The notes under the pieces: generated by a model
The model's database searches: none
Told to the model about the DNA's origin: nothing
Seen by the model: only the letters and a program-made list of their open reading frames with translations
Shown: positions 17,268 through 35,862 of the stretch, in pieces
How the letters are laid out: every line of letters starts with the position of its first letter
Position numbering within the stretch: position 1 is the stretch's first letter
Made by a program: the position numbers and the translations under genes
Assembly (NCBI GenBank): GCA_016874935.1
Contig: VGSS01000017.1
Span: 1-36,103, forward strand
Source: Deltaproteobacteria bacterium
GTDB taxonomy: Bacteria > Desulfobacterota > BSN033 > UBA1163
Reading direction: 5' to 3'
DNA length: 36,103 nucleotides

Positions 17268-20200
17268 TTATTTTTTCGTCTCAGCTTTAGGAGCTGGTTT
17301 GGGTTCAGGTTTTGCTTCTGGCTTGGGCGCGGGTTTGGCTTCTGCCTTTGGCGCTGGTTTGGGTTCAGGCTTCTTTTCGACTTTTGGTCTCTCCTCTTTA
17401 AGGATATTGACCAGAAACACCTTATACTCAGGAATCATGGTGTTGGCATCGCCAATGGACGGGGTGAGAATATTGGCACTATCCCCTCCATCCTTGGGGA
17501 CCAACCATCCATAATGCCAGGACAATCCCACGAGGTGGACGGTCTGGCCAGCAATGTTAAAAGGTTTGATACGATTGGTCACCATGGCTTTGGCCCACAT
17601 TTTGCCTCGCGGGGATGCGATGGTGATGCGTTCGCCGTTTTTGATCCCCCTCAATTTGGCCAATTCCAGACTTAACTCAACATACATCTGAGGTTCTGCT
17701 TCGACCAACCATGGCTGATATCGGGTCATCAGGCCTGTCTGCCAGTGTTCGGTTAGACGGTAGGTGGTTGCCACAAAGGGGAACTTCGGATCGCAGGTCG
17801 TATACTTATCAAGTTCGCCTTTGAAGAGCGGAATAGCCGGGTTGATCCTCTGGGAAGAAAGAGGATTCTTCTCAATGGGGCATTCCAGCGGTTCGTAATG
17901 TTCCGGGAAGGGACCATCCGCCATTCCCACTCCAAAGAAAGATCCAACGCCATCCGGCCTCATAATAAATGGATACCTTCCATTGGGAAGGCCCATGGGA
18001 GGCACGGCATTGTCAGGCACATCGCCTACCCACCTGGTGCCATCCCATTTGATGACCGCCCGTTTGGGATCCCATGGATTCCCGTTGAGGTCCACCGAAG
18101 CGCGGTTATAGATAATTCTCCGATTGAGAGGCCATGCCCAGCCCCACTGTGGAAAGATATTACATGAGGCCACTGGTGTTCTGTTCCGGCGGGCCATCAT
18201 GTTTCCGGCTTCGGGATAACTACCAGAGTAGAGCCAGTTTCCGCATGACGTACGGCCATCTGCAAGCAGGAAGACAAAGTTAGGAACCTGCGTTCCTTTC
18301 TTATAGGCTTTTTTGTCAATTGGATGCTCGGCAATATCTTCGGTAAAGTAGCCATTGATCTCTTTGGCTACCGCATGGAAGTCAACCTTGCCATCCTTTG
18401 CATAATCCCATTTCAACTTCAAGATCGGATCCGGGAAAGCGCCTCCCTCTTTGGCATAGAGTTCTTTCACCTTGGTATAAAGTTCATGAACGATCTGCCC
18501 ATCTGCCTTAGAATCACCAAGAGGCTCGCCAGCTTTATTTCGCCATTGCCCGACTCTACCACTGTCAGTAATGCTTCCTTCTTTTTCAATCGACATAGCG
18601 GCTGGAAGCAGAAAGACCTCGGTCTTGATCTTCTTGGGATCCATTCCAGGCCCTTTCCAGAAAGAGCTGGTCTCATTTTCGAAGAGGTCAATGTCCACCA
18701 GCCAATCCAGCTTAGCCATTGCTTTTCTAGTTTTCTCGGAATTGGGGCCTGAGCATGCTGGGTTCATTCCCATACAGACAAATCCTGAGAAATCACCGTT
18801 GAACATTTTATCGAACATAAAAAGCCAGGAGGCGTTCTGTCCAACATCAATTTTCGGCAACCAACTATATCCGAAATCATTCTCTTTGGTTCCATTTTCG
18901 CCGTAGAACGATTTAAGCAGACTGGCAATATATTTGGGCCTGTTTGCCCACCAGTTCACACTCATCGGATCAACCGCCTTTGGAGTGGTTGCATTATATT
19001 TTTCGAGGTTATCAAATGCCGCATTTACTGCAGGCATATAGCCAGGCAGGATATGGAAGAGCAATGCCTGGTCGGTTATCCCCTGAACATTGGACTCGCC
19101 TCTGAGCGCATTGACTCCACCTCCTGCCATTCCGACATTCCCCAAAAGCATTTGGATCATGGAAGCGACACGAACAATCTGGGTACCTGTCGTATGCTGG
19201 GTCCATCCCATGGCATAGAGCATGGTTCCTACCTTGTCAGGCTTTCCGGTCGCTGCAAAGGTTTCGTAAACTTTTATCAGATCGGCCTTTGAAGTTCCGG
19301 TGAGGCTGGAAACCGTATCCAGATCATATCGGGCATAGAACTTCTTCATTAATTGGAAGACGCATCTCGGGTGTTGAAGGGTCATATCTTTGACAGGAAT
19401 TCCCTTGTCATCTCTATCAAAGACCCATGTTGCTTTATCATAAGCCCTCTTTTCAGGATTGTATCCCGTAAAAAGGCCATCTTTAAAATCGAACTTATCG
19501 CTGACGATAAATGGGGCATTGGTGTAATGGATCACATAGTCTTTGAAGAAAATGTCCTTATCGAGGATGTATTTGATCATCCCGCCTAGAAAGGCAATAT
19601 CTCCTCCTGACCGCATGGGAGCATAAATATCTGCCTTGGCCGAGGTTCGGGTAAATCTCGGATCAACGCTGATAATCTTTCCACCTTTTTCCTGTGCCCT
19701 TAAAACCCATTTCATGGCAACCGGATGGTTTTCTGCGGCATTGCTTCCCATGATAAGAATGCAATCACTCACCCCAATATCTGTCCATGAATTGGTCATT
19801 GCACCGCGTCCAAACGACTCTGCCAGAGCCGCTACCGTGGGGCTGTGTCAGAGGCGGGCTTCCATTTCGATGTAGACGAGTCCGAGGGCTCTGAGAAATT
19901 TCTGATAGAGCCATCCCTCTTCATTATTAACGTGGCAACTTCCTATGCCAGCTATACCATTTGTTCGATTGACGACCTGGCCCTTATCATTCTTTTCGGT
20001 GAAGCTGGCATCACGGCTTTTCTTGATCCTTTTTGCCATTTCGGTAAGAGCCCAATCCCAGGATTTTTCTTCCCATTTTGTGCTATTAGGTGCCCGGTAG
20101 AGGACTTTCGTCAATCGGTCTTTATTGTTGATGAGCTGGTAAAGTGACATTCCTTTTGCACAGAGAGCGCCTTCACTGGTCGGATGATCCGGGTCGCCCT

Positions 20201-20423
20201 CCGTGTTAATCACTTTTCCTTTCGCATCCGTGTGAACGATGATGCCGCAGCCGACTGAGCAGTAACAGCAGACGGTGGTTGTCTCTTTTGCTCCTTTAAT
20301 TCGGAGTTCCTGGGCATAAGATTCTACCGGCGAGAAATCGAATCCCAGGCCGCCCATCACTGTCCCTGCGGCTGTAGCGCCAGAAATCTTTAAAAAACTT
20401 CTTCGCGTAATCTTCATAGCCAA
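17268..20423 (-). CDS. fdhA: Selenocysteine-containing formate dehydrogenase catalytic (alpha) subunit, Tat-exported
   Basis: One gene of about 1,051 residues read through an in-frame UGA at 19850-19848 (residue 192). Simple translation splits it into 191- and 843-residue pieces. The frame continues as RL-Sec-HSPTVAALAESFGRGAMTN, the exact context of Sec in FDH-N/FdhA enzymes. A Tat signal (TRRSFLK, residues 6-12) directs export. C52, C55, C59 and C88 bind a [4Fe-4S] cluster, and the rest is the molybdopterin (Mo or W) oxidoreductase fold. It oxidises formate to CO2 in the periplasm. The last 37 or so residues are an unusual Pro/Lys/Ala/Glu repeat tail. The start is either the TTG at 20423 (AGGTG five bases upstream) or the ATG at 20417. 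Confidence 0.93.
19815..19850 (-). promoter_or_regulatory. Candidate bacterial SECIS of fdhA
   Basis: Starting 16 bases after the UGA, CGGCTC (19831-19826) pairs with GAGTCG (19820-19815) around an apical TGGCA, with one G-U pair. The distance from UGA to loop matches bacterial SECIS elements, and the first bases (TGACACAGCCC) resemble those of E. coli fdnG/fdhF. Confidence 0.7.
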
Positions 20424-23589: not shown

Positions 23590-24453
23590 TCATGATCCGA
23601 TCTCACGGATCGGTATCTTATTCATCTTGAGCCCCAGAGGCTCGGGGGGAATCCCCATGCTCAGACCCAGGAGCTGAGGATACAGAAGAGAGGGAAGAGG
23701 AGGATTTGAACCCTGCCGAGAGAGAATCATCTGCTGAACGGTATCGAACTGAATTTGACAATACGTGCAGGCAGTGCAGAGATAATTCGCGCCTGACTCT
23801 CTCCCATTGTTAAGTTTTTTTAACGTCATCTCCGTTGACAACTCATCATGGCTCCCCAGAAGAGGAGCCCCACAACATTCAAGCCTCATCAACCAGCCAA
23901 TGCTTTTGGCCCCGGTCACATTCACTAACCGCTCAAAAATGGAGGGGTTCCCTGGATCATCAAACCGTACAATCTGGCTTGGACGCAGCGCATGACATCC
24001 GTAATGGGCGGCAATTTTTAGCCCTTGAAAGGGTTTTTCGATCTTCTTCCGGATCGCTTCGATTCCTACCTCTTGATCAAGAACGGACAGGAGATGCTTT
24101 ATCTCAATCTTTCCTTCGTAGGAAATATCCTCCTGCTGAAGAACCGCATTGACCTCCTTCCGAAGAGAGAGGTTCTCTTTCAGAAGAAAGTCCGCTTTTT
24201 TCAGGCTCCCGTAGCAACACTGGCATAAGGTCATTACATTCAGCTTCTTCGTTTCGGCGAGTGCCAGATTTCTCGCCGACGCCAGGAGAAAGGTTTTGAA
24301 ATCGATATTCCGCAGAGGATATCCGCAGCAGTTAAACTCCCCAATATCCATCAGCTCCACACCGAGCCGCTCCAAAACCGCCCTGGAGGAGGTTTCGTAC
24401 TGTTGCAATCGAATGGGAATCTGGCAACCTAAAAAGAGTGCGTATTTCATCAT
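23590..24453 (-). CDS. hdrB: HdrB-like subunit with two CCG domains
   Basis: A 287-residue protein of the heterodisulfide reductase B family. Both cysteine-rich CCG domains are complete: C10, C42-C43-G, C77/C80, and C153, C193-C194-G, C226/C229. In methanogen HdrB these residues hold two noncubane [4Fe-4S] clusters that carry out two-electron disulfide chemistry. In bacteria the partner substrate may differ or be absent. The start overlaps the hdrC stop by four bases (ATGA). It is the last gene of the cluster, followed by about 140 bases with no recognisable gene or good terminator. It probably passes electrons between HdrC and either HdrA or a soluble thiol/disulfide carrier. Confidence 0.92.
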   Translation of the reverse strand: MMKYALFLGCQIPIRLQQYETSSRAVLERLGVELMDIGEFNCCGYPLRNIDFKTFLLASARNLALAETKKLNVMTLCQCCYGSLKKADFLLKENLSLRKEVNAVLQQEDISYEGKIEIKHLLSVLDQEVGIEAIRKKIEKPFQGLKIAAHYGCHALRPSQIVRFDDPGNPSIFERLVNVTGAKSIGWLMRLECCGAPLLGSHDELSTEMTLKKLNNGRESGANYLCTACTYCQIQFDTVQQMILSRQGSNPPLPSLLYPQLLGLSMGIPPEPLGLKMNKIPIREIGS

Positions 24454-25328
24454 ATCTTCTCTTTCGTGTATTTGATGGCTGAATTCTTCAGCTCATAAAG
24501 CACGTCGGTGACGGGTACCCCTCTGGGACACTGCTCCTGGCATTGATAGCAGGTCAGACAATCCCAGAGCATATTGGAACCAATGGCCAGGTCTTTCAAC
24601 CCTAATCCAGCGGCATGCATGATCTGATGGGGCAGAAGCCCCAGGACCTCCTGTGGGTTTTCGTAATGCCTCACCACAGGGCAGACGGTCGTGCAGGTCT
24701 GGCAACCGAAACAAATTGAAAAGTTTTTTGCCTGGGAAGAAAGGTCCAATCCACTTTTAAATTTTTCATCCACAGGGGTCAGGTGAAGGACTTCATCTTT
24801 CTTCTTCATTAAATCACATTGAGAAGAAATTGCCTCCCTGGCCTGGGTGAGAGGCTTTTCGTAATCTCCCTGAGCCGCCTCTGCCTTCATCAACCCCCGA
24901 TAAAATGAGAGTGGTGAGAGAACCGAAAGTTCTGGAATTCCTCTTTGGATGAGAAGCTCTCTGACTCTATTCCACAAATTCTGCAGATTGATCCCTACCG
25001 GACAAACCACCGTGCAACGGTAGCAGTTGGTACAGAGATAGACGCCTTCCTGAAGACCACGGATCTCCTGTTCTGTAAGCGGATTGCCGGAAGCCAGAGC
25101 CTTGATCGAGGCAACTTTTTCGGAAGGGAGAATATTGATGTTTGGAATCCCTTCAAAAGCGATTGCAACAGAACAGTGGGAACTGCACATGGCACAATGG
25201 GTACAGGCGTCCAGCTCCATGAGCTGAATCATGGAGAGGTTCTTCCCCATCCAGCTTCTGGAAAAACGCCTGCAGTGAATCAGTGTTTTACACCAATGGA
25301 GAACTTTGTCGGAAAAGCTTAAGTTCAT
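24450..25328 (-). CDS. hdrC: Double HdrC-like iron-sulfur protein (four [4Fe-4S] sites)
   Basis: A 292-residue protein with two HdrC-type ferredoxin modules in tandem. Module 1 has C42/45/48/52 and C99/102/105/109. Module 2 has C206/209/212/216 and C257/260/263/267, each ending in CP or close to it. Ordinary HdrC carries only two clusters and is about half as long. The linker (110-200) is helical. No membrane segment or signal is seen, so it should be cytoplasmic, relaying electrons between the membrane cytochrome b encoded upstream and HdrB downstream. Both neighbours overlap it by ATGA. The duplicated module could make two separate docking faces, an inference from the architecture. Confidence 0.9.
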   Translation of the reverse strand: MNLSFSDKVLHWCKTLIHCRRFSRSWMGKNLSMIQLMELDACTHCAMCSSHCSVAIAFEGIPNINILPSEKVASIKALASGNPLTEQEIRGLQEGVYLCTNCYRCTVVCPVGINLQNLWNRVRELLIQRGIPELSVLSPLSFYRGLMKAEAAQGDYEKPLTQAREAISSQCDLMKKKDEVLHLTPVDEKFKSGLDLSSQAKNFSICFGCQTCTTVCPVVRHYENPQEVLGLLPHQIMHAAGLGLKDLAIGSNMLWDCLTCYQCQEQCPRGVPVTDVLYELKNSAIKYTKEKI

Positions 25329-27475
25329 TTTTCCCCCATAGCAGCCTTAACCAAAACAACGAGAGGGCTGATTAGGATATGGAACATTTTACTGAACGGA
25401 AGATAGGCAACCAGAGCCCCTGTCAGTATCGCATGGACATACCATCCATAGGGATAGATCATCTCCCAGCGGATAGGAATAAGGCCGAGAAGGAGCGAAA
25501 CAGGATAGCCTATAAAAGATGGAAGCGCCTTTGAAAGGGGGATGCCCGTTTGAAGAATCCTCATTCCCTCTACCCAGAACCCTGTCAACAGGATCGCTCC
25601 GATCAAACCCAAGACTACATAATCCTGTCCGCCCGTGATCGCCTTCTGGCTCTTCCCCTGTAGGCGCCTCATGATCGCGAACATAGCTCCAAGGATGATG
25701 CATAATCCCAGAAAATCGTTGATGAACGCAAGAGGAGGAAAATTTTTATCGAGCAGCACCGCCACCTTCTCGCTCATCGGAAAGAGAGCGGAAAGGATAA
25801 GAAGTGTCAATCCAATCAGAAACCGGATAAAGATGGGGAGGTAGATGAGACTGTGAATCGTCCAGCGACCTACCCCTTCCTTCAAGATACTTCTGAGCAG
25901 GAGGACATCCACAATAAAGACCTTGAGGATGGTCCATATCTTCCTGGAGAAGACGATCTGCCAGGCTTTTTCTCCAATGTAGGAGAGCTTTTCACGGGCG
26001 GTAAAGGAAGGGTCAACCATCGTCCCCTGAAACCAGAAGGCGAGCGTGGCTCCAATCCCAAACAGAAAAAGGAGAACGGAAACGATTGAGACCGGATCAT
26101 TGAGAGTCACCGAACTGCTATGACATCCCATGCAGATCACACTCTTTGCCGGAAGCACACGAACCGGAGCTCCCACCTTATTTTCAGGAAAATGACATTT
26201 CTTGCAGGCTTCGTGATTTTTAAAATCGGCAAACCGGTGAGAAGTCATCTTGACAGGTGCGCCATCTTTGACCTTGGCCAACAAGATTCTGCCTGTCTTG
26301 GGATCCTTCCTCACCTCTTTGGATTCATGGTGGCAGGCCTCACAGTTGACGCTCCGGTGAGGATCATGCGCGGTCCCCTCACCATGGTATCCATGGCAGG
26401 AGACGCAACCAAACTGTTTTGTTCGATGAGGAGAAGAGGCGATTCCATCATGGCACTGGATACAGGCGATTCTCCGATGGATTGTTTGCCCATACTCTTT
26501 CGAATCAATATAAACAGAGACCGCTTTCCCATCGACCTTTTTCTCCACATCCTTCTTTTCGTGACAATTCATACAGAAGAGGATCGTTGTGGCCGTGCCT
26601 TCATTGCTGTTGAGGTTGGGCTGGCGATGGCAGCGCAGACATATCTTCTTTTCCGCCTCCATCATCTCTTCATCGGTCATTCCTCGGGCAAAAGAGATGG
26701 TAGGAAAGATTCCACAAAGGAAAAGAATGAGGAAAAGAAAGAGAAGGTCTTTTCTTACCCTTCGCCTCTTCTTCTCTTCAGGATGTCGATTTAACTCCTC
26801 CCACTCCAGAGGATGATGTTCCATGATCTTTTTAGCTTCCATCTGACCCGTAAAGATGGACTTGTCCATTGGAAAGACACTGGCGCGGAGATGTCCATTG
26901 AAGAGATGGACAACAAAGATAAACCCCATGGCCAGAAGCGCCTCATCGCTGTGGATCGTATAAGCGATATTGAACCAGAAGCCAGGTAAAAACCCGGAGA
27001 AAAATTCCGGGAACCAGAGCAAGAGGCCGGATCCCCCGATAAATGTGATTCCCCAGAAGACCGCCCAGTAATCAAATTTCTCCCAGTACGTAAACCGGCC
27101 AAATTGCGGCGGAGATCCCTTCCCCATAAAATAGAGAAGATGCTGGTAGAGATCTCGAAAATCTTTTAGTGAAGGAACCATGGAATGGGGCCCCAATAAC
27201 TTCCCTTTTAATATAACAAGGTAATAGCACACATAGAGCAGATGGAGGGCGAAATAGCCGAAGGTGATCCCGGCGAACCATCGATGAAACAGTCCGGCTC
27301 CCTTTACCCCTCCCCAGAGAAAGATCAGCCCCTGCGCCCAGAAGGCCTGCGGGTATTTGAGGGGAAGCCCGGTTAAAGCCAGGCCCAGAAAGGTGATCAT
27401 CATCACCAGGTGAATAAACCGATGAAAAACATTAAATCGCCAATAGACTTCTCTCTGATCTTCCTTCATGGACAT
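25325..27475 (-). CDS. Fused cytochrome b / heptahaem cytochrome c / NarI-like cytochrome b
   Basis: A 716-residue membrane protein with three parts. Residues 1-205 have four membrane helices and histidines in HRFIH, HRWFAG...ALHLL and VVHLFNGHLR, like the di-haem cytochrome b of formate dehydrogenases. Residues 245-455 begin with a fifth helix and hold seven CxxCH haem sites (C279, C301, C338, C357, C378, C424, C448) facing outside. Residues 460-716 have about five helices and end GWYVHAILTGALVAYLPFSKMFHI, the signature of NarI/DsrM/HdrE-type quinone-linked cytochrome b. It overlaps hdrC by four bases and follows the hexahaem cytochrome gene by four, so these form one unit moving electrons between outer haems, quinone and cytoplasmic HdrC. 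The direction is not decided. Confidence 0.9.
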   Translation of the reverse strand: MSMKEDQREVYWRFNVFHRFIHLVMMITFLGLALTGLPLKYPQAFWAQGLIFLWGGVKGAGLFHRWFAGITFGYFALHLLYVCYYLVILKGKLLGPHSMVPSLKDFRDLYQHLLYFMGKGSPPQFGRFTYWEKFDYWAVFWGITFIGGSGLLLWFPEFFSGFLPGFWFNIAYTIHSDEALLAMGFIFVVHLFNGHLRASVFPMDKSIFTGQMEAKKIMEHHPLEWEELNRHPEEKKRRRVRKDLLFLFLILFLCGIFPTISFARGMTDEEMMEAEKKICLRCHRQPNLNSNEGTATTILFCMNCHEKKDVEKKVDGKAVSVYIDSKEYGQTIHRRIACIQCHDGIASSPHRTKQFGCVSCHGYHGEGTAHDPHRSVNCEACHHESKEVRKDPKTGRILLAKVKDGAPVKMTSHRFADFKNHEACKKCHFPENKVGAPVRVLPAKSVICMGCHSSSVTLNDPVSIVSVLLFLFGIGATLAFWFQGTMVDPSFTAREKLSYIGEKAWQIVFSRKIWTILKVFIVDVLLLRSILKEGVGRWTIHSLIYLPIFIRFLIGLTLLILSALFPMSEKVAVLLDKNFPPLAFINDFLGLCIILGAMFAIMRRLQGKSQKAITGGQDYVVLGLIGAILLTGFWVEGMRILQTGIPLSKALPSFIGYPVSLLLGLIPIRWEMIYPYGWYVHAILTGALVAYLPFSKMFHILISPLVVLVKAAMGEK

Positions 27476-27479
27476 AAGG

Positions 27480-28286
27480 CTAATTCCTTTTTAACCATTC
27501 GTGAACTTTCCTGAGAATCCAGACCAGGGTGTGAGAATAAAAGAAAGCAAGCACCACAAAGACGATGATTCCGAAACCGATCTCAATCCAACGGAGGATG
27601 GTTAACTTATTAAGCTTCTCCACATCCTCTTTCTTGACCCCCTCTTTGGAGGCGTGGATCACATAATCCGTAAACCGAAGCTGGGCGTTTGGATGGCACT
27701 TCTTACAGGCCTCCAGAGCAACTTCCTTCTTCTTTAATGAGAGGCAGGTATGGGCGCCGTGACAATCCGTGCAATAGGCAGAAGCCTCATGTCCTAGGGA
27801 GGCGGCTGCTTTTCCGTGATAATTTTCGAGATATGTCCTCATCTCAGATAGGTGACACTTCCCACACATCTCGGTCATCCATCTTCCGAGTACCAAACGC
27901 GACTGACCGGAAACGACGTAATGGCTGACATGACAGTTTCCGCATGTTGGGGCGTCCTTCTTTCTTTCCACCAGCGCTTTGGCGTGTTCCCCTTTGAGAT
28001 ACCTTTGGTAAACCTGGGGATGGCACTTTTCGCATCTCTTGTAGTCATAAAGAAGAGTGGAAGGCCTGTTTAAGAGATTCGAATTGGGATGTTTCACCCC
28101 TTTTTCCTCGATGTCCGGGTGGCACTCCGAACAGGAGATGCGACCATGAGAGGAAGATTGAAATTTAGTCATATCCACAAACCAGGACCGCTGGGGAAGA
28201 TTCTTCTCCGTGGCCTGGATAGGAGAAAATGTTAATCCAAGCAGACAAAACAAGATGAAAAAAGATAGAAAAGAAACTTTCATCAT
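27480..28286 (-). CDS. Membrane-anchored hexahaem c-type cytochrome
   Basis: About 268 residues from the ATG at 28286, which has AGGAAG upstream; a start at 28328 giving 282 residues is also possible. A signal peptide (VSFLSFFILFCLLGLTF) is followed by six CxxCH sites: CSECH, CEKCH, CGNCH, CGKCH, CTDCH and CKKCH. One membrane helix lies near the C-terminus, followed by a basic tail. The haem spacing and the YLENYHGKAA segment recall NrfH/NapC-unrelated cytochrome c families common in sulfate reducers, but I cannot name the exact one. It should sit on the outer face and exchange electrons with the seven-haem domain of the next protein, bringing the pair to 13 c-type haems. Confidence 0.88.
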   Translation of the reverse strand: MMKVSFLSFFILFCLLGLTFSPIQATEKNLPQRSWFVDMTKFQSSSHGRISCSECHPDIEEKGVKHPNSNLLNRPSTLLYDYKRCEKCHPQVYQRYLKGEHAKALVERKKDAPTCGNCHVSHYVVSGQSRLVLGRWMTEMCGKCHLSEMRTYLENYHGKAAASLGHEASAYCTDCHGAHTCLSLKKKEVALEACKKCHPNAQLRFTDYVIHASKEGVKKEDVEKLNKLTILRWIEIGFGIIVFVVLAFFYSHTLVWILRKVHEWLKRN

Positions 28287-28360
28287 TTTTTTCTTCCTAA
28301 TTGGGATCATGAGATAGAGTTCATTCATAAATGCCTTTTTCCATCATATCGGACCTGAGA

Positions 28361-28445
28361 AGCCTGCCCCGTACTTGATACGGGGGTATCCAGTCCCGCT
28401 TTTGGCGGGATTAAAAACCTGGATTCCCCGCCTCGCCGGAATGAC
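28361..28445. repeat. Inverted-repeat element R4 (GTCATTCC family)
   Basis: It ends in CCGGAATGACGAC. It contains the hairpins CCCCGTA-CTTGA-TACGGGG and TCCCGC-TTTT-GGCGGGA, and shares the CCCGTATCAAG-type module with R1 and R2. It lies between metF and the hexahaem cytochrome gene, so it is inside the presumed operon. Confidence 0.8.
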
Positions 28446-28462
28446 GACTTTGTTGGTAGAAT

Positions 28463-29389
28463 CTACACTATTTGCGGTCTTGGCAGTAAACCTGCCATCT
28501 CAGCAATCTCCCTGACTTTCTCCTCCCATTCAATGGCCATGATGTGAATTCCGCGAACCCCGGGAAGCTGTTTTAGTCTCTGGATTGTCTCCACGCAGAT
28601 TTTGATGCCTTCTTCGGACTGTTTCTCCTTGAGCACTCCCTTTAAACGGTCGATCATCTCATCCGGCACATCCATTCCGGGTACGGAATTCTTCATGTAG
28701 CGAGCCATCCCCACTGATTTGAACGGCGTCACTCCAGCCAGGATCGCCACCTTCTCATGAATCCCTCGGTCCCTCACCATCTCCATCCACTTTTCAAACC
28801 TTGGGATATTATAGATGCACTGTGTCTGTAAAAATTCCACGCCGGCTTTTGCCTTCTTGCCAAGCCTTGCCGCCCGAATCTCAAACGGATCGGCAAAGGG
28901 GTTCTCCGCAGCCCCAATAAAGAGTACGGGTCTCCCTTTTATCTCTTCCCCTTCAAGAAACTTCCCATCGTCCCTCATCGTCTTGACCGTTTGAATCAAC
29001 TGAATGGAATCCATGTCAAAGACGTTTTTGGCCCTTGGATGATCTCCAAACTTCTGATGGTCTCCGGTCAGGCAGAGGATGTTGTTGATCCCCATGGCTG
29101 CCGCTCCCAGAATGTCGCTCTGTATCGCAATCCGGTTTCGATCCCTACAGACCATCTGAAGGATAGGGTCAAAACCCATCTCCTTCAAGATCAGGCAGGC
29201 AGAAAAGGAACTCATCCTCACTACCGAGGTCTGGTTATCCGTGACATTGACTGCATCCACAGCCCCCTGAAGGAGTTTCCCTTTCTTTCGAATTACCTCG
29301 GCATCTGCCCCTCTCGGCGGTCCACACTCCGAAGTCACTACCAGTTGACCTGACTCAAGTACTCTTTCAATGTTCGACTTGGTTTTCAT
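28463..29389 (-). CDS. metF: Methylenetetrahydrofolate reductase MetF
   Basis: A 308-residue TIM-barrel flavoprotein of the MTHFR family, which interconverts methylene-THF and methyl-THF. Family features are TSECGPPRGADAEVIRKK at residue 19, VNVTDNQTSVVRMSS near 48, ILCLTGDHQKFGDHP near 104, GAAENPFADP near 158 and QTQCIYNIPRFEKWM near 189. It lacks the C-terminal extension of NAD(P)H-dependent types and is paired with MetV, as in acetogen-type MTHFR, where a partner feeds electrons. AGGAG lies five bases before the ATG. The gene sits in one direction with HdrA, MvhD, MetV and the cytochrome genes. In this organism it may run oxidatively (methyl-THF to methylene-THF). Confidence 0.93.
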   Translation of the reverse strand: MKTKSNIERVLESGQLVVTSECGPPRGADAEVIRKKGKLLQGAVDAVNVTDNQTSVVRMSSFSACLILKEMGFDPILQMVCRDRNRIAIQSDILGAAAMGINNILCLTGDHQKFGDHPRAKNVFDMDSIQLIQTVKTMRDDGKFLEGEEIKGRPVLFIGAAENPFADPFEIRAARLGKKAKAGVEFLQTQCIYNIPRFEKWMEMVRDRGIHEKVAILAGVTPFKSVGMARYMKNSVPGMDVPDEMIDRLKGVLKEKQSEEGIKICVETIQRLKQLPGVRGIHIMAIEWEEKVREIAEMAGLLPRPQIV

Positions 29390-29408
29390 CGCCGCTCCTA
29401 TAAATCAT

Positions 29409-29473
29409 AAGGTTAAGGCTAAGGTTAAGGTTGAGAAAACACTTAACCTGAACCTTAATCTTGGCCTTCTTAA
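29409..29473. repeat. 6-bp tandem repeat (AAGGTT) on the 3' side of the four-helix-bundle gene
   Basis: AAGGTT/AAGGCT recurs at 29409, 29415, 29421 and 29427 (6-bp period). It is followed by opposite-orientation CTTAACC/AACCTTAA segments and a further AAGGATTAAGGCT, so the block can fold on itself. Confidence 0.75.
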
Positions 29474-29477
29474 AGGA

Positions 29478-29849
29478 TTAAGGCTGAGATTTTTGGGTTA
29501 AGGAATTGATCAAAGAGTTTAATTCCTTCCATATTTCTTCAATAAAATCTATCAGATCTTCAACATCTTTTTTTTCAAAGTACCCAACTCTTCTGCCATA
29601 TATCAGATGACTTTTCGTCTCAGACAAAGATCCACGTGAATGATAATAGAAATTCAACTTGTCCTTTGTATGCTTTCTTCCAAATCCCTCCGCAATATTA
29701 CCCGATACCGATAATGATGATTTTCTGATTTGAGAAGTCAGGCTATAGTCTTCCTTTCTTGGAAGATGTTCAGTCAAATTAAAGATCCTTACGGCAAGTT
29801 CCATAGCCTTTTGCCATACAGGCATATCTTCAAATGATTTATATCCCAT
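29478..29849 (-). CDS. Four-helix-bundle protein (23S rRNA intervening-sequence protein family)
   Basis: A 123-residue protein clearly of the S23/IVP four-helix-bundle family. It has SFEDMPVWQKAMELAVRIF at the start, SLTSQIRKSSLSVSGNIAEGFGR in the middle and a helical C-terminus. Members were first seen in intervening sequences of 23S rRNA genes; related folds include the Avd protein of diversity-generating retroelements. The molecular role of most is unknown. Here it lies between metV and metF, with GGTTAA-type repeats in opposite orientation on each side. The repeat supplies the AAGG that serves as a weak ribosome-binding site. It looks like a small insertion into an otherwise metabolic operon and is probably unrelated to C1 metabolism. 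Confidence 0.9.
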   Translation of the reverse strand: MGYKSFEDMPVWQKAMELAVRIFNLTEHLPRKEDYSLTSQIRKSSLSVSGNIAEGFGRKHTKDKLNFYYHSRGSLSETKSHLIYGRRVGYFEKKDVEDLIDFIEEIWKELNSLINSLTQKSQP

Positions 29850-29854
29850 TCTTT

Positions 29855-29880
29855 CTTAACCTTAACCTCAACCTTAACCT
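29855..29880. repeat. 6-bp tandem repeat (CTTAAC) on the 5' side of the four-helix-bundle gene
   Basis: CTTAAC, CTTAAC, CTCAAC and CTTAAC follow each other at 29855, 29861, 29867 and 29873. This is the inverse of the AAGGTT block at 29409-29432, so the gene is bracketed by inverted copies. Confidence 0.75.
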
Positions 29881-29884
29881 GCCT

Positions 29885-30553
29885 CTATAGTTTTAAATCC
29901 TCTCTTATTCTCTTCCTTGGTCCTCCATCCCTCGACGTTCTCCAGTCTTTGATCGGAATGATCTCCTCGTATTTCTCCATTTGGTTAAGCGCTTTGAGCC
30001 GATCAATGATGAGCTGCCAGCCACACTCGAGATCTTTGTCCACCTCGCATTTCCCATTGGAGCTCCCCCCGCAGGGGCCATTGAGCAAACTCTTGGCACA
30101 GCGGGCGATCGGACAGATTCCCCCGGTCATATGAAGCACACACTCCCCGCACCCCTGACACCTCTCGGACCAGACCCCTTGTTCAAGTGTTACACCCAAA
30201 AAGGTGGTATTGACTGCAGGCAGGACCGTTTTATCCTTGTAGGTCTCAGCCAGATACTGAATCCCGGCTCCGCACGCCATTGAAAGGACGACCTCATAAT
30301 CCCCTACAAATGGACGAATTTGATCAATGTATTCATGATCACACTGACGCTCCAGAGTCTGTTCCCTGATCTCTATCTCCTGGCCATCTTTCGCTCGAGA
30401 AAGCTTCAGTTCGGAAGCCAACACCCCCACTTCCCGCTCCCCCCCTGTGGCGGAAACCGTTACGCATTCGTTACAACCCAGGAGCAAAACTTTCTTGTAA
30501 GGCTTGAGCATTTTTAAGATCTCATCCAACGACTTCCTGTCCGCTACAATCAT
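29885..30553 (-). CDS. metV: MetV-like MTHFR partner protein (zinc-finger / MTHFR C-terminal domain)
   Basis: A 222-residue protein of the MetV family, the obligatory partner of short MetF in acetogens. The N-terminal half has the flavodoxin-like VLLLGCNECVTVSATGGEREV. The C-terminal half is cysteine-rich (RCQGCGECVLHMTGGICPI, then CAKSLLNGPCGG and GKCEVDKDLECGW) and binds zinc and/or iron-sulfur clusters. MetV links MetF to the Hdr/MvhD electron-transfer module in Moorella. GGAGG is five bases before the ATG. It follows mvhD by 89 bases filled with an inverted 7-bp repeat. Confidence 0.9.
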   Translation of the reverse strand: MIVADRKSLDEILKMLKPYKKVLLLGCNECVTVSATGGEREVGVLASELKLSRAKDGQEIEIREQTLERQCDHEYIDQIRPFVGDYEVVLSMACGAGIQYLAETYKDKTVLPAVNTTFLGVTLEQGVWSERCQGCGECVLHMTGGICPIARCAKSLLNGPCGGSSNGKCEVDKDLECGWQLIIDRLKALNQMEKYEEIIPIKDWRTSRDGGPRKRIREDLKL

Positions 30554-30568
30554 CAGAACCTCCGGTCA

Positions 30569-30649
30569 GTTCGGAGTAATTTAGTTCGGTGTTCGGAGTT
30601 TTAAGTCCTTTAGACCTTCACTCCGAACTACGAACTCCGAACTCATAAC
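30569..30649. repeat. 7-bp repeats (AGTTCGG / CGAACTC) forming an inverted block between mvhD and metV
   Basis: On the left, AGTTCGG is at 30569 and 30583 and TGTTCGG is at 30590, all in one 7-base register. On the right, CGAACTN is at 30624, 30631 and 30638, again every seven bases and in the opposite orientation. The two sides can pair to form a large hairpin in the mvhD-metV transcript. Confidence 0.8.
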
Positions 30650-31134
30650 TTTCTCTTTTTCACAGGAGAGGGCCCCAAGGCCCGAATCTTCTCCGCCATC
30701 TCACGGGCCACCTCTGCAAACCGCTGCCCCTGAGCTGAGCTCATGTTGTACATCTCCACACGGCCGGATCCCAATCCGACTTCTTCAAGCAGTGTCTTCA
30801 CATACTGGACGCGTTTCTTTGCCCTCAAATTCCCTCTTAAAAAATGGCACTCACCCTCCAAACATCCTGCTAAATAAACTCCATCCACTCCAGACTCAAA
30901 GGTCTTTAGGATGAGAAGAGTATCCACCCTGCCCGTACAGGGGACCTTCACCACTTTAATGTTCGTCGGATAGTTTAGCCTCATCGAACCTGCCAGGTCC
31001 GCTGCACTGTAGGCTCAATGCTCACAACAAAAAGCCAGTATCTCAGGCTCAAAGGACGTGGCCGTGTCTCGTGTCACGTGTCCGGACTCTTTAACCTTCG
31101 TTATATCTTCTTCCTTCATAGCTAATTCTGTCAT
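30643..31134 (-). CDS. mvhD: MvhD-like hydrogenase iron-sulfur subunit containing selenocysteine
   Basis: A 163-residue protein when the in-frame UGA at 31017-31015 (residue 40) is read as Sec. Taken alone, the downstream part would look like a 113-residue protein lacking its conserved N-terminus. The joined frame reads EPEILAFCCEHUAYSAADLAG, matching the FxCNWCxYxGAD segment of MvhD/FrhD proteins; the second cysteine of the pair is Sec, as in VhuD of some methanogens. The rest (VKVPCTGRVDTLLILKTFESGVDGVYLAGC, then GECHFLRGN) is typical. MvhD holds a [2Fe-2S] cluster and connects HdrA to its electron donor. The start at 31134 has a GGGAG from an 8-bp tandem repeat. Residues 17-27 are encoded by a 7-bp repeat. 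Confidence 0.88.
30986..31017 (-). promoter_or_regulatory. Candidate bacterial SECIS of mvhD
   Basis: Fourteen bases after the UGA, GGACC (31000-30996) pairs with GGTTC (30990-30986) around TGGCA. This is the same apical pentanucleotide as in the fdhA candidate. Further pairing GCCT/AGGC at the base is possible. Confidence 0.6.
31057..31083. repeat. 7-bp repeat (CGTGTCN) inside the N-terminal coding region of mvhD
   Basis: CGTG occurs at 31057, 31063, 31070 and 31077, with three CGTGTC[T/A/C] units in a 7-base register. It encodes a GHVTRDTATS-type segment between the start and the conserved domain. Confidence 0.7.
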
Positions 31135-31135
31135 T

Positions 31136-31169
31136 TTCCCGATCTCCCTATCACCCTATCTCCCTATCT
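31136..31169. repeat. 8-bp tandem repeat (GATAGGGA x4) forming the mvhD ribosome-binding region
   Basis: On the minus strand the units GATAGGGA, GATAGGGT, GATAGGGA and GATCGGGA run directly into AAATG of the mvhD start. They lie in the 41-base gap after hdrA. On the plus strand CCCTATC is at 31146, 31154 and 31162. Confidence 0.75.
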
Positions 31170-31175
31170 ATCTTT

Positions 31176-34100
31176 TTATGCTGCAACCCCCAACAGCAAA
31201 GCTTGACACTTTTCTTCTAATTGATGGCTCTGGAAGTGCATCAGTTCAATCGCCTTTGCCGGACATTCAGCCACACACCCGCCACACCCCTTACACATGG
31301 CTGGATCAATCTCTGCCTCTCCCTTGGCATTGATGACAGGAACATTATAGGGGCAGACTCTTACACAAGTCAGGCAGGCTGCGCAACGATCCCCTTCGAC
31401 CACAGCCACCACTCCTCCTACTCGAAGCACTTCTTGCGAAAGCACGGTCGCTGCCCGGGCCGATGCCCCTAAGCCATGGGCGATTGATTCGTCAATCGGC
31501 TTGGGCGCATGGGCCAGGCCGCAGACGTAAACTCCATCGGTTGCGAAATCGATCGGCCGGAGTTTCACGTGAGCTTCCACAAAAAAACCATCCCCGTTGA
31601 CTGGTACCTTAAACAGATTGGCCACAGGATTGACCTTCGGAGGAACAATAGCCGTTGCAAGTACTAACAGGTCAGGCCGAACCTCCATCTCACGGTTCAA
31701 GACATAACTGGTGAAACGAATTCGCAGGTCTTTCCCGTCCTGAGCAACGTTTAACTCCTTTTGATCATCATACCGGATAAAAAGAACCCCTTTGGCGGCA
31801 GCCTCACGATAAAGATCTTCCCTGAGAGCATAGGTCCGCATATCCCGATAGATGATGAAGACATTCATCTCCGGGTTTATCTCTTTCAGTTTGATGGCGT
31901 TCAGAACCGAATGGGTGCAACAGACCTTTGAGCAATAAGGTCTCTCTTTATTTCGAGAGCCGACACACTGAATAAAAGCCACTGATCGAGCCGATTTCAA
32001 GGAACCATCACGGTTGATCAATTTCCGGTCTAACTCCAGGCTGGTCAGGACTCGAGGGTCCTGACCGTAGAGGTGTTGATCCGGCTTCAGTTCAGAGGCC
32101 CCTGTGGCAATGATCGCGATCCCATGCTCCAGCAGCTTCTCTGTCCCATTGGTCTGAATCGTCGATTTAAAATTCCCCACAGAACCTTCCACCTGTTTCA
32201 ATTCGGTATTGAGGAAAACCTCAATCTTCGAGTTCGACTGGACCTCATTCATGATCCGGTTCAGATGTTGTTGAACATCCTCGCCCCGCCAGGTCTGGTG
32301 GATATTTCGGGCCTGCCCACCCAAGACATCGCTCTTCTCGATGAGATAGGTGTGAAAACCCTGGTCTGCAAGGCTGAGAGCCCCCATCATGCCCGACAGA
32401 CCCCCACCTATAACAAGACAGCTGTGATTCAGGCTTCGGTCCATTTGATGGAGGGGTTTTAAATTCCTGGAACAGGCCACAGCCATTTGAACGAGTTCCT
32501 TCGCCTTATCTGTGGCCATCTCCTTCTGAGCCATATGAACCCAGGAACACTGGTCTCGAATATTGGCCATTTCAAACAGGTATGGATTGATTCCCACTTC
32601 GCGGATCGTATCCCGGAAAAGAGGCTCGTGAGTCCGGGGCGAGCAGGAAGCCACGATCACGCGATTCAGATTCAGTTCCTTCACTCGCTCCTGGATGATT
32701 TGTAATGAGTCTGCGGAACAGGTGTAGATCGTATTCTCCGCGTGGACCACTCCAGGAAGCGACTTTGCAAATTCCGTAACTGTTTTCACATCCACTGTGC
32801 CGGCGATATTGACTCCGCAGCTGCAGATGAAGGCCCCGATTCTCGGTTCTTCGCCGGCCACCACTTCTCTCTCAGGAGGATATTCCTTCTTTCTTACCAG
32901 TGTTCCGCGGGCTTCTCCGATGACGGAGAGGGCCTTTGCCGCTCCACCACTGGCCTGGATCACGCTGTCCGGAATGTCTTTGGGCCCCTGGAAAGCGCCG
33001 CAAACGAAGACGCCGGGTTTTGATGTCCGGACCGGTTCGAAACTGCTGTTCACAGGAAAAGAGTATGGATCCAGATCGATATCCAATCGTTTGGCCAGAT
33101 CCGCAGCATCCTTCGAAATCCCAATGCCAACGGACAAGATCACCAGGTCAAATGTTTCCTCCACTCTTCTTCCATGTTCATCCGTATATTGGATGAGGAG
33201 GTCGCCCGGTTCCTTCCCTGGAAGAACTCGTGTAATTCTCGATTTGATAAAACGAACGCCTGCTTCCTCGGCACGGTTATAGTATCTTTCGAAATCCTTG
33301 CCGTAGGTACGCATATCGATGTAGAAGATGGCCGTATCCAAAGGACCAGCTGAATGTTCCTTTGCCACAACGGCCTCTTTAATGGCATAGGTGCAGCAAA
33401 CGCCCGAGCAGTAAGGTTTGGCCCCTTCATGCACATCCCTTGATCCCACGCACTGGATAAATGCAATTTTCTTCGGGTCCTGATGGTCCGGGGAGCGGCG
33501 GGTGAGATGGCCTCCCCAGGGACCTGAGGCGCTGAGCATTCGTTCAAATTCCATGCTGGTAACCACATTGGGATAACGGCCATACCCTAATTCCGAGGAG
33601 TGGCCCGGATCGTAGAGTGAATAGCCGGGTGAAAGGATGACCGAACCGATTTCCAGTTCTTCGGTGTAAGGGGCTTGTTGATGGTCGATCGCCTCCCGTT
33701 TGCAGACATGGACGCAGAGGTGGCATTCGGAACAGATCCCGCATTCAAGGCATCGCGCTGCTTCTATCCTCGCCTGTTCTTCGGTGAGAACCAGTTCCAC
33801 CTCTCTAAAATTTCTCACCCTCTCTTTCTCAGGCAATTCTGGATTTTTTGTTCGAGGAGACAAATCAACTTTACCCTCTTCGATTATCTCTCCTATCTCT
33901 TCTTGTGAGAGATCAACCACAGGGAGGGGAATCTGTTCCCTTGGGGTAAGAAGCGGAACGCATCTTAAATAGCGGTCAATGGAAAGCGCGCCACGCCGGC
34001 CGTCGGCAATGGCCTGGATCAAAATCCAGGGCCCTCTTGCCACATCGCCTCCGGCGAAGATTCCCGGGCGATTGGTGGTTAACGTTTTTGAATCGATGGC

Positions 34101-35750
34101 AAAGGTCCCTTTGGACGTGACCTCAAGGCCATGGGTATCTTCGAGAAAAGAGATTTCAGGGGCCTGGGCAACAGCGGCAATCATCGTATCTGCAGGGATG
34201 ACATACTCAGAACCTTTAACAGGTATGGGGCGTCTTCTACCAGAACTATCCGGCTCCCCTAATTCCATCTTCACACACTTCACACCAGCGACATGGTTCT
34301 CCTCTACGACCACCTCGACGGGAGCAGTGAGAATTTGAATGTCGATCTCTTCCCGTTCTGCGGCTTCAATTTCCCAAGGATTGGCAGGCATCTCATCCTT
34401 CGACCGGCGGTAGAGGATCTTCACTTCTCTGGCGCCCAACCGCAGAGCAGTCCTGGCCGCGTCAATCGCGACATTTCCTCCGCCGATGACAACCGTCTTC
34501 TCACCTACTTTTGGCGCAGAAGGGTTACCAGGGGCAAGGATAGGTCCATCTTGCATTCTTCCAGCGAAGTCATGTTTTTCTGCCAGACTAACGGCCTGAA
34601 GAAACGGAACCCCATGATGAACGCCCGGGGCATCCTCTCCTGGAATCCCCAGCTTCTGTGGTTCGTGTGCCCCCATTGATAAAAAAACGGCAGAATAACC
34701 TTCCTCAAAAAGACGGTTGATGTTGCGAATAGGGGTATTCAATTTCAATTCGACATTGGGGTGATGAACGATGTCATCAATCTCCCTCTGGAGCACATCT
34801 CTCGGGAGACGGTAGGCCGGAATCCCAACTCTCATCATCCCTCCAGCGACTGGAAGGGCCTCGAAGATCGTGACCTGATAACCCATCCGTGAGAGCTGGT
34901 GGGCGCAACTCAATCCCGCTGGTCCTCCGCCAACAATGGCCACCTTTGCTTTAGGCCGTTCTATTTCTTCCTGACTTCGAACTCCTTTATCTTCTTCTTT
35001 ACTCTGAACTCCGAACTCCGAACTCCGAACTTCTTTTAACTCCTCTCGATGTTCATAAACCCAGTCAGCAGCAAAACGCTTTAAATTGCAGATCGCCACA
35101 GGGGTGTCGAGCTTTCCCCGATTGCACTTCTCTTCACAAGGATGGTTACAAACACGCCCTACCGAGGCAGGAAAAGGATTGTACTCTTTCACCACATCAA
35201 GCGCCTCTTTATACCGTCCGGCATGAATGAGGGCAACATAGCCCTGGGCGCTTGTCTCTGCAGGGCAGGTCGATTTGCAGGGGCTCGTTCCTCTCTTGGT
35301 AACCAGGAAGGTGTTGGGAACAGCCTGCGGATAGGGTCGATAAATCGCTCTTCTCTGGTCAAGACCCTGGTTGAATTCATTGGGAAGGAGGATGGGACAG
35401 ACTTCTGTGCAATCATTGCAACTGGTGCATTTGTCCATGTACACATAACGAGGATGTCTTTTGAGAATGGCCTTGAAATGTCCGGCCTCTCCTTCCAAAC
35501 CGACCAATTCAGAATTGGTAATCATCTCGATATTGAGATGGCGGCCCGCCTCCACCAGTTTTGGAGAGATAATACACATGGCGCAGTCATTGGTCGGGAA
35601 GGTCTTATCGAGCTGTGCCATCTTCCCACCGATCGCCGGGGATCGCTCCAGCAGATAGACCCTAACGCCGGAGTTTGCCAGATCAAGGGCAGCTTGAACC
35701 CCGGCAATCCCTCCCCCCACGACTAACGCAGCACCAATCTTTTCAACCAT
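31176..35750 (-). CDS. hdrA: Tandem HdrA with inserted GltD-like NAD(P)H oxidoreductase module
   Basis: A 1,524-residue flavo-iron-sulfur protein. A first HdrA-like module begins directly at an FAD motif (ALVVGGGIAGVQAALDLA). After CTSCNDCTEVCP (near 108) it is interrupted at about 145-640 by a GltD-like module: PCKSTCPAETSAQGYVALI, VGRVCNHPCEEKCNRG, a second FAD motif IVGGGPAGLSCAHQL and the NAD(P) motif VIGGGNVAIDAARTA. The first HdrA resumes (CLECGICSECHLCVHVC, FIQCVGSRD...YCSGVCCTYAIKEA). A full second HdrA follows from about 972 (GAFICSCGVNIAGTVD, LVIGGGLSGMMGALSLA, IQCVGSRNKERPYCSKVCCTHS) and ends in two ferredoxin motifs. It should bifurcate or confurcate electrons between NAD(P)H, ferredoxin and MvhD/HdrBC. 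The ATG at 35750 has AGAGG six bases upstream; the longer frame runs into repeat R5. Confidence 0.92.
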   Translation of the reverse strand: MVEKIGAALVVGGGIAGVQAALDLANSGVRVYLLERSPAIGGKMAQLDKTFPTNDCAMCIISPKLVEAGRHLNIEMITNSELVGLEGEAGHFKAILKRHPRYVYMDKCTSCNDCTEVCPILLPNEFNQGLDQRRAIYRPYPQAVPNTFLVTKRGTSPCKSTCPAETSAQGYVALIHAGRYKEALDVVKEYNPFPASVGRVCNHPCEEKCNRGKLDTPVAICNLKRFAADWVYEHREELKEVRSSEFGVQSKEEDKGVRSQEEIERPKAKVAIVGGGPAGLSCAHQLSRMGYQVTIFEALPVAGGMMRVGIPAYRLPRDVLQREIDDIVHHPNVELKLNTPIRNINRLFEEGYSAVFLSMGAHEPQKLGIPGEDAPGVHHGVPFLQAVSLAEKHDFAGRMQDGPILAPGNPSAPKVGEKTVVIGGGNVAIDAARTALRLGAREVKILYRRSKDEMPANPWEIEAAEREEIDIQILTAPVEVVVEENHVAGVKCVKMELGEPDSSGRRRPIPVKGSEYVIPADTMIAAVAQAPEISFLEDTHGLEVTSKGTFAIDSKTLTTNRPGIFAGGDVARGPWILIQAIADGRRGALSIDRYLRCVPLLTPREQIPLPVVDLSQEEIGEIIEEGKVDLSPRTKNPELPEKERVRNFREVELVLTEEQARIEAARCLECGICSECHLCVHVCKREAIDHQQAPYTEELEIGSVILSPGYSLYDPGHSSELGYGRYPNVVTSMEFERMLSASGPWGGHLTRRSPDHQDPKKIAFIQCVGSRDVHEGAKPYCSGVCCTYAIKEAVVAKEHSAGPLDTAIFYIDMRTYGKDFERYYNRAEEAGVRFIKSRITRVLPGKEPGDLLIQYTDEHGRRVEETFDLVILSVGIGISKDAADLAKRLDIDLDPYSFPVNSSFEPVRTSKPGVFVCGAFQGPKDIPDSVIQASGGAAKALSVIGEARGTLVRKKEYPPEREVVAGEEPRIGAFICSCGVNIAGTVDVKTVTEFAKSLPGVVHAENTIYTCSADSLQIIQERVKELNLNRVIVASCSPRTHEPLFRDTIREVGINPYLFEMANIRDQCSWVHMAQKEMATDKAKELVQMAVACSRNLKPLHQMDRSLNHSCLVIGGGLSGMMGALSLADQGFHTYLIEKSDVLGGQARNIHQTWRGEDVQQHLNRIMNEVQSNSKIEVFLNTELKQVEGSVGNFKSTIQTNGTEKLLEHGIAIIATGASELKPDQHLYGQDPRVLTSLELDRKLINRDGSLKSARSVAFIQCVGSRNKERPYCSKVCCTHSVLNAIKLKEINPEMNVFIIYRDMRTYALREDLYREAAAKGVLFIRYDDQKELNVAQDGKDLRIRFTSYVLNREMEVRPDLLVLATAIVPPKVNPVANLFKVPVNGDGFFVEAHVKLRPIDFATDGVYVCGLAHAPKPIDESIAHGLGASARAATVLSQEVLRVGGVVAVVEGDRCAACLTCVRVCPYNVPVINAKGEAEIDPAMCKGCGGCVAECPAKAIELMHFQSHQLEEKCQALLLGVAA
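35006..35033. repeat. 7-bp tandem repeat (GAACTCC x4) inside hdrA
   Basis: GAACT occurs at 35006, 35013, 35020 and 35027, exactly every seven bases, with a further GAACTCC at 34979. It encodes the hydrophilic linker EVRSSEFGVQ and its continuation, between the GltD N-terminal iron-sulfur part and its FAD domain. The unit is the same as in the mvhD-metV gap. Confidence 0.85.
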
Positions 35751-35784
35751 GTTCAACCTCTTGATTTCAATTTCAATCAGAATC

Positions 35785-35862
35785 GTCATTCCGGCGAAAG
35801 CCGGAATCCAGTTTTTTCATTCGGCTAATCATTCTCTGGACTCCGGTTTCCACCGGAGTGAC
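35785..35862. repeat. Inverted-repeat element R5 (GTCATTCC family)
   Basis: It starts GTCATTCCGGC-GAAA-GCCGGAAT (hairpin) and ends with CTCCGGT-TTCC-ACCGGAG followed by TGACGAC. It is a two-hairpin element like R3, located directly upstream of hdrA. Its edge supplies a spurious ATG for the longer hdrA frame. Confidence 0.8.

Follow-up and report, generated by a model that had tools for sequence, protein, structure and literature searches.

The mvhD gene found at 30643..31134 on the minus strand of the window, i.e. the whole stretch of 36,103 nucleotides analysed here, almost certainly encodes a selenocysteine (Sec)-containing MvhD in which an in-frame UGA would be decoded by means of a bacterial SECIS (bSECIS) hairpin. 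A sequence-only reading had proposed this gene of 163 codons plus stop, with UGA as codon 40, as coding for a selenoprotein, and the proposal is now supported by the frame, by homology, by the presence of Cys or UGA in the corresponding column of the homologues, by the conservation of the SECIS and by the finding of selA, selB and selD in the genome. Of the two observations named there as refuting it, a genome devoid of Sec machinery and homologues lacking the upstream segment, neither was made, although tRNA-Sec was missing from this incomplete MAG. The selenoprotein family is long known, in Deltaproteobacteria since 2006, and the mvhD described here is a further member of it. The Sec-containing FrhD/MvhD listed in 2006 comprised 19 bacterial members, 8 from Syntrophobacter and 4 from Syntrophus (PMC1794560), and PF02662 is listed as a selenoprotein family with a CxxU motif in a 2026 review (PMC13188914). 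The present gene adds to this family a clean example, in which the comparative evidence for a SECIS is strong, and leaves the general view unchanged.

Reading frame and homologues of mvhD

Translation of the minus strand from ATG 31134 to 30643 gave a frame of which the sole interruption is the UGA at 31017-31015, codon 40, and of which the terminator after 163 codons is TGA. When UGA is rendered as U, the product begins MTELAMKEEDITKVKESGHVTRDTATSFEPEILAFCCEHU-AYSAADLAGSMRLNYPTNIK..., so that the motif around Sec40 is FCCEHU, i.e. FxCxxU. The first Cys of the CxxU pair is Cys37 (codon at 31024..31026). The start codon is kept in the closest relative together with an AGGGAG-like stretch upstream, and its position is the same in another; ATG 31134 is likely, but unproved, as the exact start of mvhD because constraint is weak over the first ~25 codons (dN/dS of some 0.3-0.7 against relatives). 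ORF finding with translation table 11 yielded nothing but the C-terminal 113 amino acids (30643..30984, minus strand), starting at ATG 30984, and the truncation foreseen for standard gene calling was therefore reproduced mechanically. The loss of the cluster-binding motif that had been predicted for this short product holds for C36, C37 and U40, which are missing, but not for C66, C91 and C96, which are retained.

The protein, with Cys substituted for Sec, matched PF02662 (FlpD, methyl-viologen-reducing hydrogenase delta subunit) with a value of 1.6e-48 over residues 32-154, and the match spans positions 1-123 of the 123 of the profile, the part before the UGA included. An alignment across the UGA position was likewise obtained with six distinct MvhD/VhuD-type sequences whose structures are solved. 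In one of them, 9sfi_K, residues 40 and 91 both correspond to a non-standard residue X; these are probably Sec, in line with the statement that some archaeal FrhD/VhuD contain more than one Sec (PMC13188914).

In a set of 130 homologous sequences taken from fetched loci, column 40 is occupied by Cys in 66, by UGA in 63 and by Ser in one, and hence by Cys or UGA in 129/130. The 63 sequences with UGA come from many families. C37, C66 and C96 are invariant in the 130 sequences, and column 91 is Cys in 127 and UGA in three (here the codon at 30862..30864, within the motif AGC-LEGEC, specifies Cys91). That the UGA stands for the second Cys of the FxCxxC motif is borne out by both the translation and the homologues. 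The single Ser belongs to a very divergent MvhD-like sequence (L161, genome G019; branch length 4.6). TAA or TAG stops seen inside some homologues were rejected as interruptions, as they lie upstream of the gene start or at the C-terminal end, outside the conserved domain.

The homologues also align to the segment upstream of the UGA, which the sequence-only reading had described as coding-like. Codons 28-50, the part missing from the truncated ORF, differ from nine relatives by 0 to 2 nonsynonymous and 0 to 7 synonymous changes, so that dN is near zero over about 51 nonsynonymous sites. These counts show that purifying selection acts on the stretch preceding the downstream ATG. A tree of 127 homologues, on which the majority of the forks lack good resolution, requires about 12 changes of state, suggesting that Sec and Cys have been interchanged several times in MvhD.

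The hairpin downstream of the UGA codon

The bSECIS element lies at 30978..31014 (minus strand) and is supported by folding, a rule-based scan, the synonymous freeze described below and pairing. RNA folding gave the hairpin CGGACCU-GGC-AGGUUCG with a 7-bp upper stem (31001-30995 with 30991-30985) and a GGC loop (30994-30992), prolonged by a lower stem (31014-31011 with 30981-30978) in the full fold GCC..(CGGACCU GGC AGGUUCG)..GGC. The first G of the loop is nucleotide 21 after the UGA. The published bSECIS rule, as quoted in PMC13188914, requires an apical loop of 3-9 nt with a G in its first two positions, a stem of 4-16 bp and a distance of 16-37 nt from the UGA, and in the rule-based scan the mvhD hairpin fell within these ranges (7 bp, 3-nt loop, loop G at nt 21). 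In a simple fold, the energy of the 61-nt stretch is unremarkable (z -0.86, not significant by itself); since this single-sequence value is insufficient as proof of a SECIS, a comparative test was used. An Rfam scan of the mvhD locus gave sub-threshold chance matches only, the Rfam models not being built for generic bSECIS elements.

The comparison of Sec and Cys versions was carried out on the codons that form the hairpin. Among codons 45-50, the Sec versions use near-single codons (GAC 59/59, CTG 58/59, GCA 54/58 and GGT 54/59), whereas the choice among synonymous codons is free in the Cys versions (shuffling test, p about 0.0005 for each codon, uncorrected for phylogeny). This freeze is restricted to codons 45-50 of the Sec versions, being weaker at codon 52 and absent from the other flanking codons. 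The sequence GACCTGGCAGGTTC is present in 51/59 Sec versions against 1/65 Cys versions, and pairing of the upper stem reaches 91.6% of cells in the Sec versions against 52.5% in the Cys versions. Covariation is limited: a two-sided change, from C-G to G-C in 3 distinct sequences, was seen solely at the outer end of the upper stem (pair nt 14/30). The argument for a SECIS is carried by conservation and not by covariation, and the freeze of synonymous codons, confined to the Sec versions, is the decisive evidence that the hairpin matters. The SECIS-like hairpin noted in the first reading is thus real, fits the bSECIS rule and is conserved in the Sec versions. The one Cys-type MvhD that retains the otherwise Sec-specific GACCTGGCAGGTTC (L141) has likely exchanged Sec for Cys while a remnant of the SECIS stayed behind.

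These data also bear on the short ORF. It could be supposed that the cell makes and uses the 113-aa protein, with no contribution from the upstream frame, as ATG 30984 is in frame and has a weak AGG-rich stretch in front. We consider this extremely improbable: none of the Cys-type homologues start at that ATG, residues P30, C37, Y42, D46 and G49, invariant or nearly so, are encoded upstream of it, and the ATG itself is located inside the SECIS hairpin.

A second position for Sec was observed in three bacterial relatives (L144, L147 and L152, from genomes G042, G043 and G041, respectively), in which residue 40 is Cys and residue 91 is encoded by UGA (AGU-LEGDC). About 24 nt after the latter UGA, a hairpin of 7 bp, capped by a GGA loop, resembles a SECIS; it is separate from the residue-40 SECIS, and the apical parts of the two look alike. 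The existence of lineages with Sec at residue 40 and of at least three with Sec at residue 91 suggests, as a tentative and rather doubtful reading, that the Sec site is unfixed in bacterial MvhD and that what is selected is a single selenium somewhere among the Cys residues that surround the [2Fe-2S] cluster, not a fixed residue.

Selenocysteine machinery in the genome

The genome is a MAG of 3.05 Mb in 206 contigs, 90.9% complete. Its selA, selB and selD scored 626, 371 and 388 bits, all above the curated cut-offs, and selD is itself interrupted by an internal TGA. The fourth gene, selC, was not detected: a covariance model, ARAGORN and BLAST did not find tRNA-Sec in this 90.9%-complete MAG, nor was it present beside selA or selB. 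tRNA-Sec is present in 8/9 congeners and in 22/30 genomes of the relatives search, those 8 included. In the close relative G002, the gene order is RluD-YlmD-YggU-tRNASec-FolK (names from reading of the ORFs). In this MAG, selA-RluD-YlmD lie together on contig 38 and the next segment differs from that of G002, the YggU-tRNASec-FolK part being absent after them; FolK has no match in the MAG. Given a completeness of 90.9% and the equally unmatched FolK, an assembly gap appears more likely than a loss of tRNA-Sec.

Independent support for the use of Sec is provided by the same contig. The second selenoprotein gene of the window, for formate dehydrogenase-N alpha (FdnG, 17268..20423, minus strand; TIGR01553 1444.9 bits for a cut-off of 814.2) contains a UGA as codon 192 (19850-19848), within ARLUHSPTV, the usual Sec site, and standard ORF finding yields two pieces of it, of 191 aa and 843 aa.

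The failure to find tRNA-Sec would be compatible with a decayed or mis-sequenced Cys-type mvhD, in which UGC or UGU had mutated to UGA or been misread, with no Sec insertion. This explanation is nevertheless very unlikely in view of the identical UGA in 63 homologous sequences from many families, the purifying selection acting before and after the UGA, the SECIS-specific synonymous freeze and the presence of selA, selB and selD. The same negative result could be taken to mean that UGA is read as another amino acid, through a genome-wide change of code or readthrough by a normal tRNA. That possibility can hardly be credited and ranks below the preceding one, as the terminator of mvhD itself is TGA, the internal UGA aligns with Cys, and both a SECIS and the Sec machinery are present. 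Decoding of the UGA as Sec is by far the preferred reading.

Five MvhD paralogues were counted in the genome and three of them, mvhD included, contain one UGA each. The other two (L162, G000 C30, and L163, G000 C6) have a different candidate SECIS, CTGGA-GTT-TCCAG, with the loop G at nt 28.

Gene neighbourhood and possible role of MvhD

The genes hdrL, mvhD, metV, metF, hdrC-like and hdrB-like are borne by one strand (23590-35789). hdrL (31176..35789, minus strand, 1537 aa) is directly upstream of mvhD, which starts about 40 nt after it, and encodes an HdrA/GltD fusion, in which a GltD-like domain is inserted into HdrA; its frame is uninterrupted, with Cys and not Sec in NDCAMC. mvhD precedes a metV-like gene (29885..30553, minus strand; PF12225, MTHFR C-terminal family) and metF, coding for methylenetetrahydrofolate reductase (28463..29389, minus strand; PF02219, 2.9e-40).

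The product is an MvhD of the FlpD/FrhD/VhuD family, a [2Fe-2S] electron-transfer subunit docking on HdrA-type flavoproteins. The bSECIS hairpin just downstream of the UGA at 31017-31015 would recruit SelB and Sec-tRNA, so that the ribosome reads this codon as Sec. Sec40 would take the place of the second Cys of the conserved CxxC and is most likely situated at or beside the [2Fe-2S] cluster, which may relay electrons between HdrL, encoded next to mvhD, and the partners of HdrL, in this case probably MetVF and HdrBC. As deduced from gene order, MvhD most likely serves as electron connector within a methylene-THF reductase complex linked to Hdr. Such a role is suggested by the single [2Fe-2S] cluster of MvhD near the bifurcating FAD of HdrA, where it acts as electron connector (PMC12350162), by the association of MvhD with Hdr and MetVF in Moorella (PMC5736913) and by known HdrL-MvhD pairs (PMC2702500).

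The locus was compared with these and other systems. The Moorella thermoacetica HdrABC-MvhD-MetVF complex (PMC5736913) likewise unites MvhD with MetV, MetF and Hdr subunits, whereas at the present locus the HdrL fusion takes the place of HdrA, and genes for membrane cytochrome b and multihaem c are located between metF and hdrC/hdrB. In Desulfobacterium autotrophicum HRM2, mvhD1, D2, D3 and D5 adjoin hdrA/hdrL (PMC2702500), and a Sec-containing MvhD follows right after HdrL as in the present case. The HRM2 HdrL, in contrast, is Sec-containing in 2/3 copies, and one HRM2 locus runs on into dsr genes and not, as here, into metV/metF (PMC2702500). The FrhD/MvhD/VhuD of Syntrophobacter fumaroxidans and Syntrophus aciditrophicus share PF02662, the CxxU site, the broad lineage and the occurrence of several Sec and Cys copies per genome (PMC1794560); that study stresses operons with FrhG/FrhA (hydrogenase), whereas the neighbours here are hdrL and metVF, with no hydrogenase. 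The annotation problem foreseen in the first reading is seen in Desulfococcus multivorans, whose mvhD homologue is divided between two locus tags (PMC5109826). With the standard code, a 113-aa fragment devoid of CxxU is obtained, and metabolic reconstructions of such uncultured anaerobes would miss or misread MvhD, which in the present case is a member of an apparent methylene-THF reductase/Hdr complex.

After metF, the region 23590-28328 (minus strand) contains genes for a multihaem cytochrome c, a membrane cytochrome b/multihaem c, and HdrC-like and HdrB-like proteins; the cytochromes possibly link the putative MetVF-Hdr complex to the membrane. Between metV and metF, a gene of the 23S rRNA-intervening-sequence (IVP/four-helix) family is present at 29478-29849 (minus strand), adjoined by a long palindromic repeat with a hairpin at about 29401-29481.
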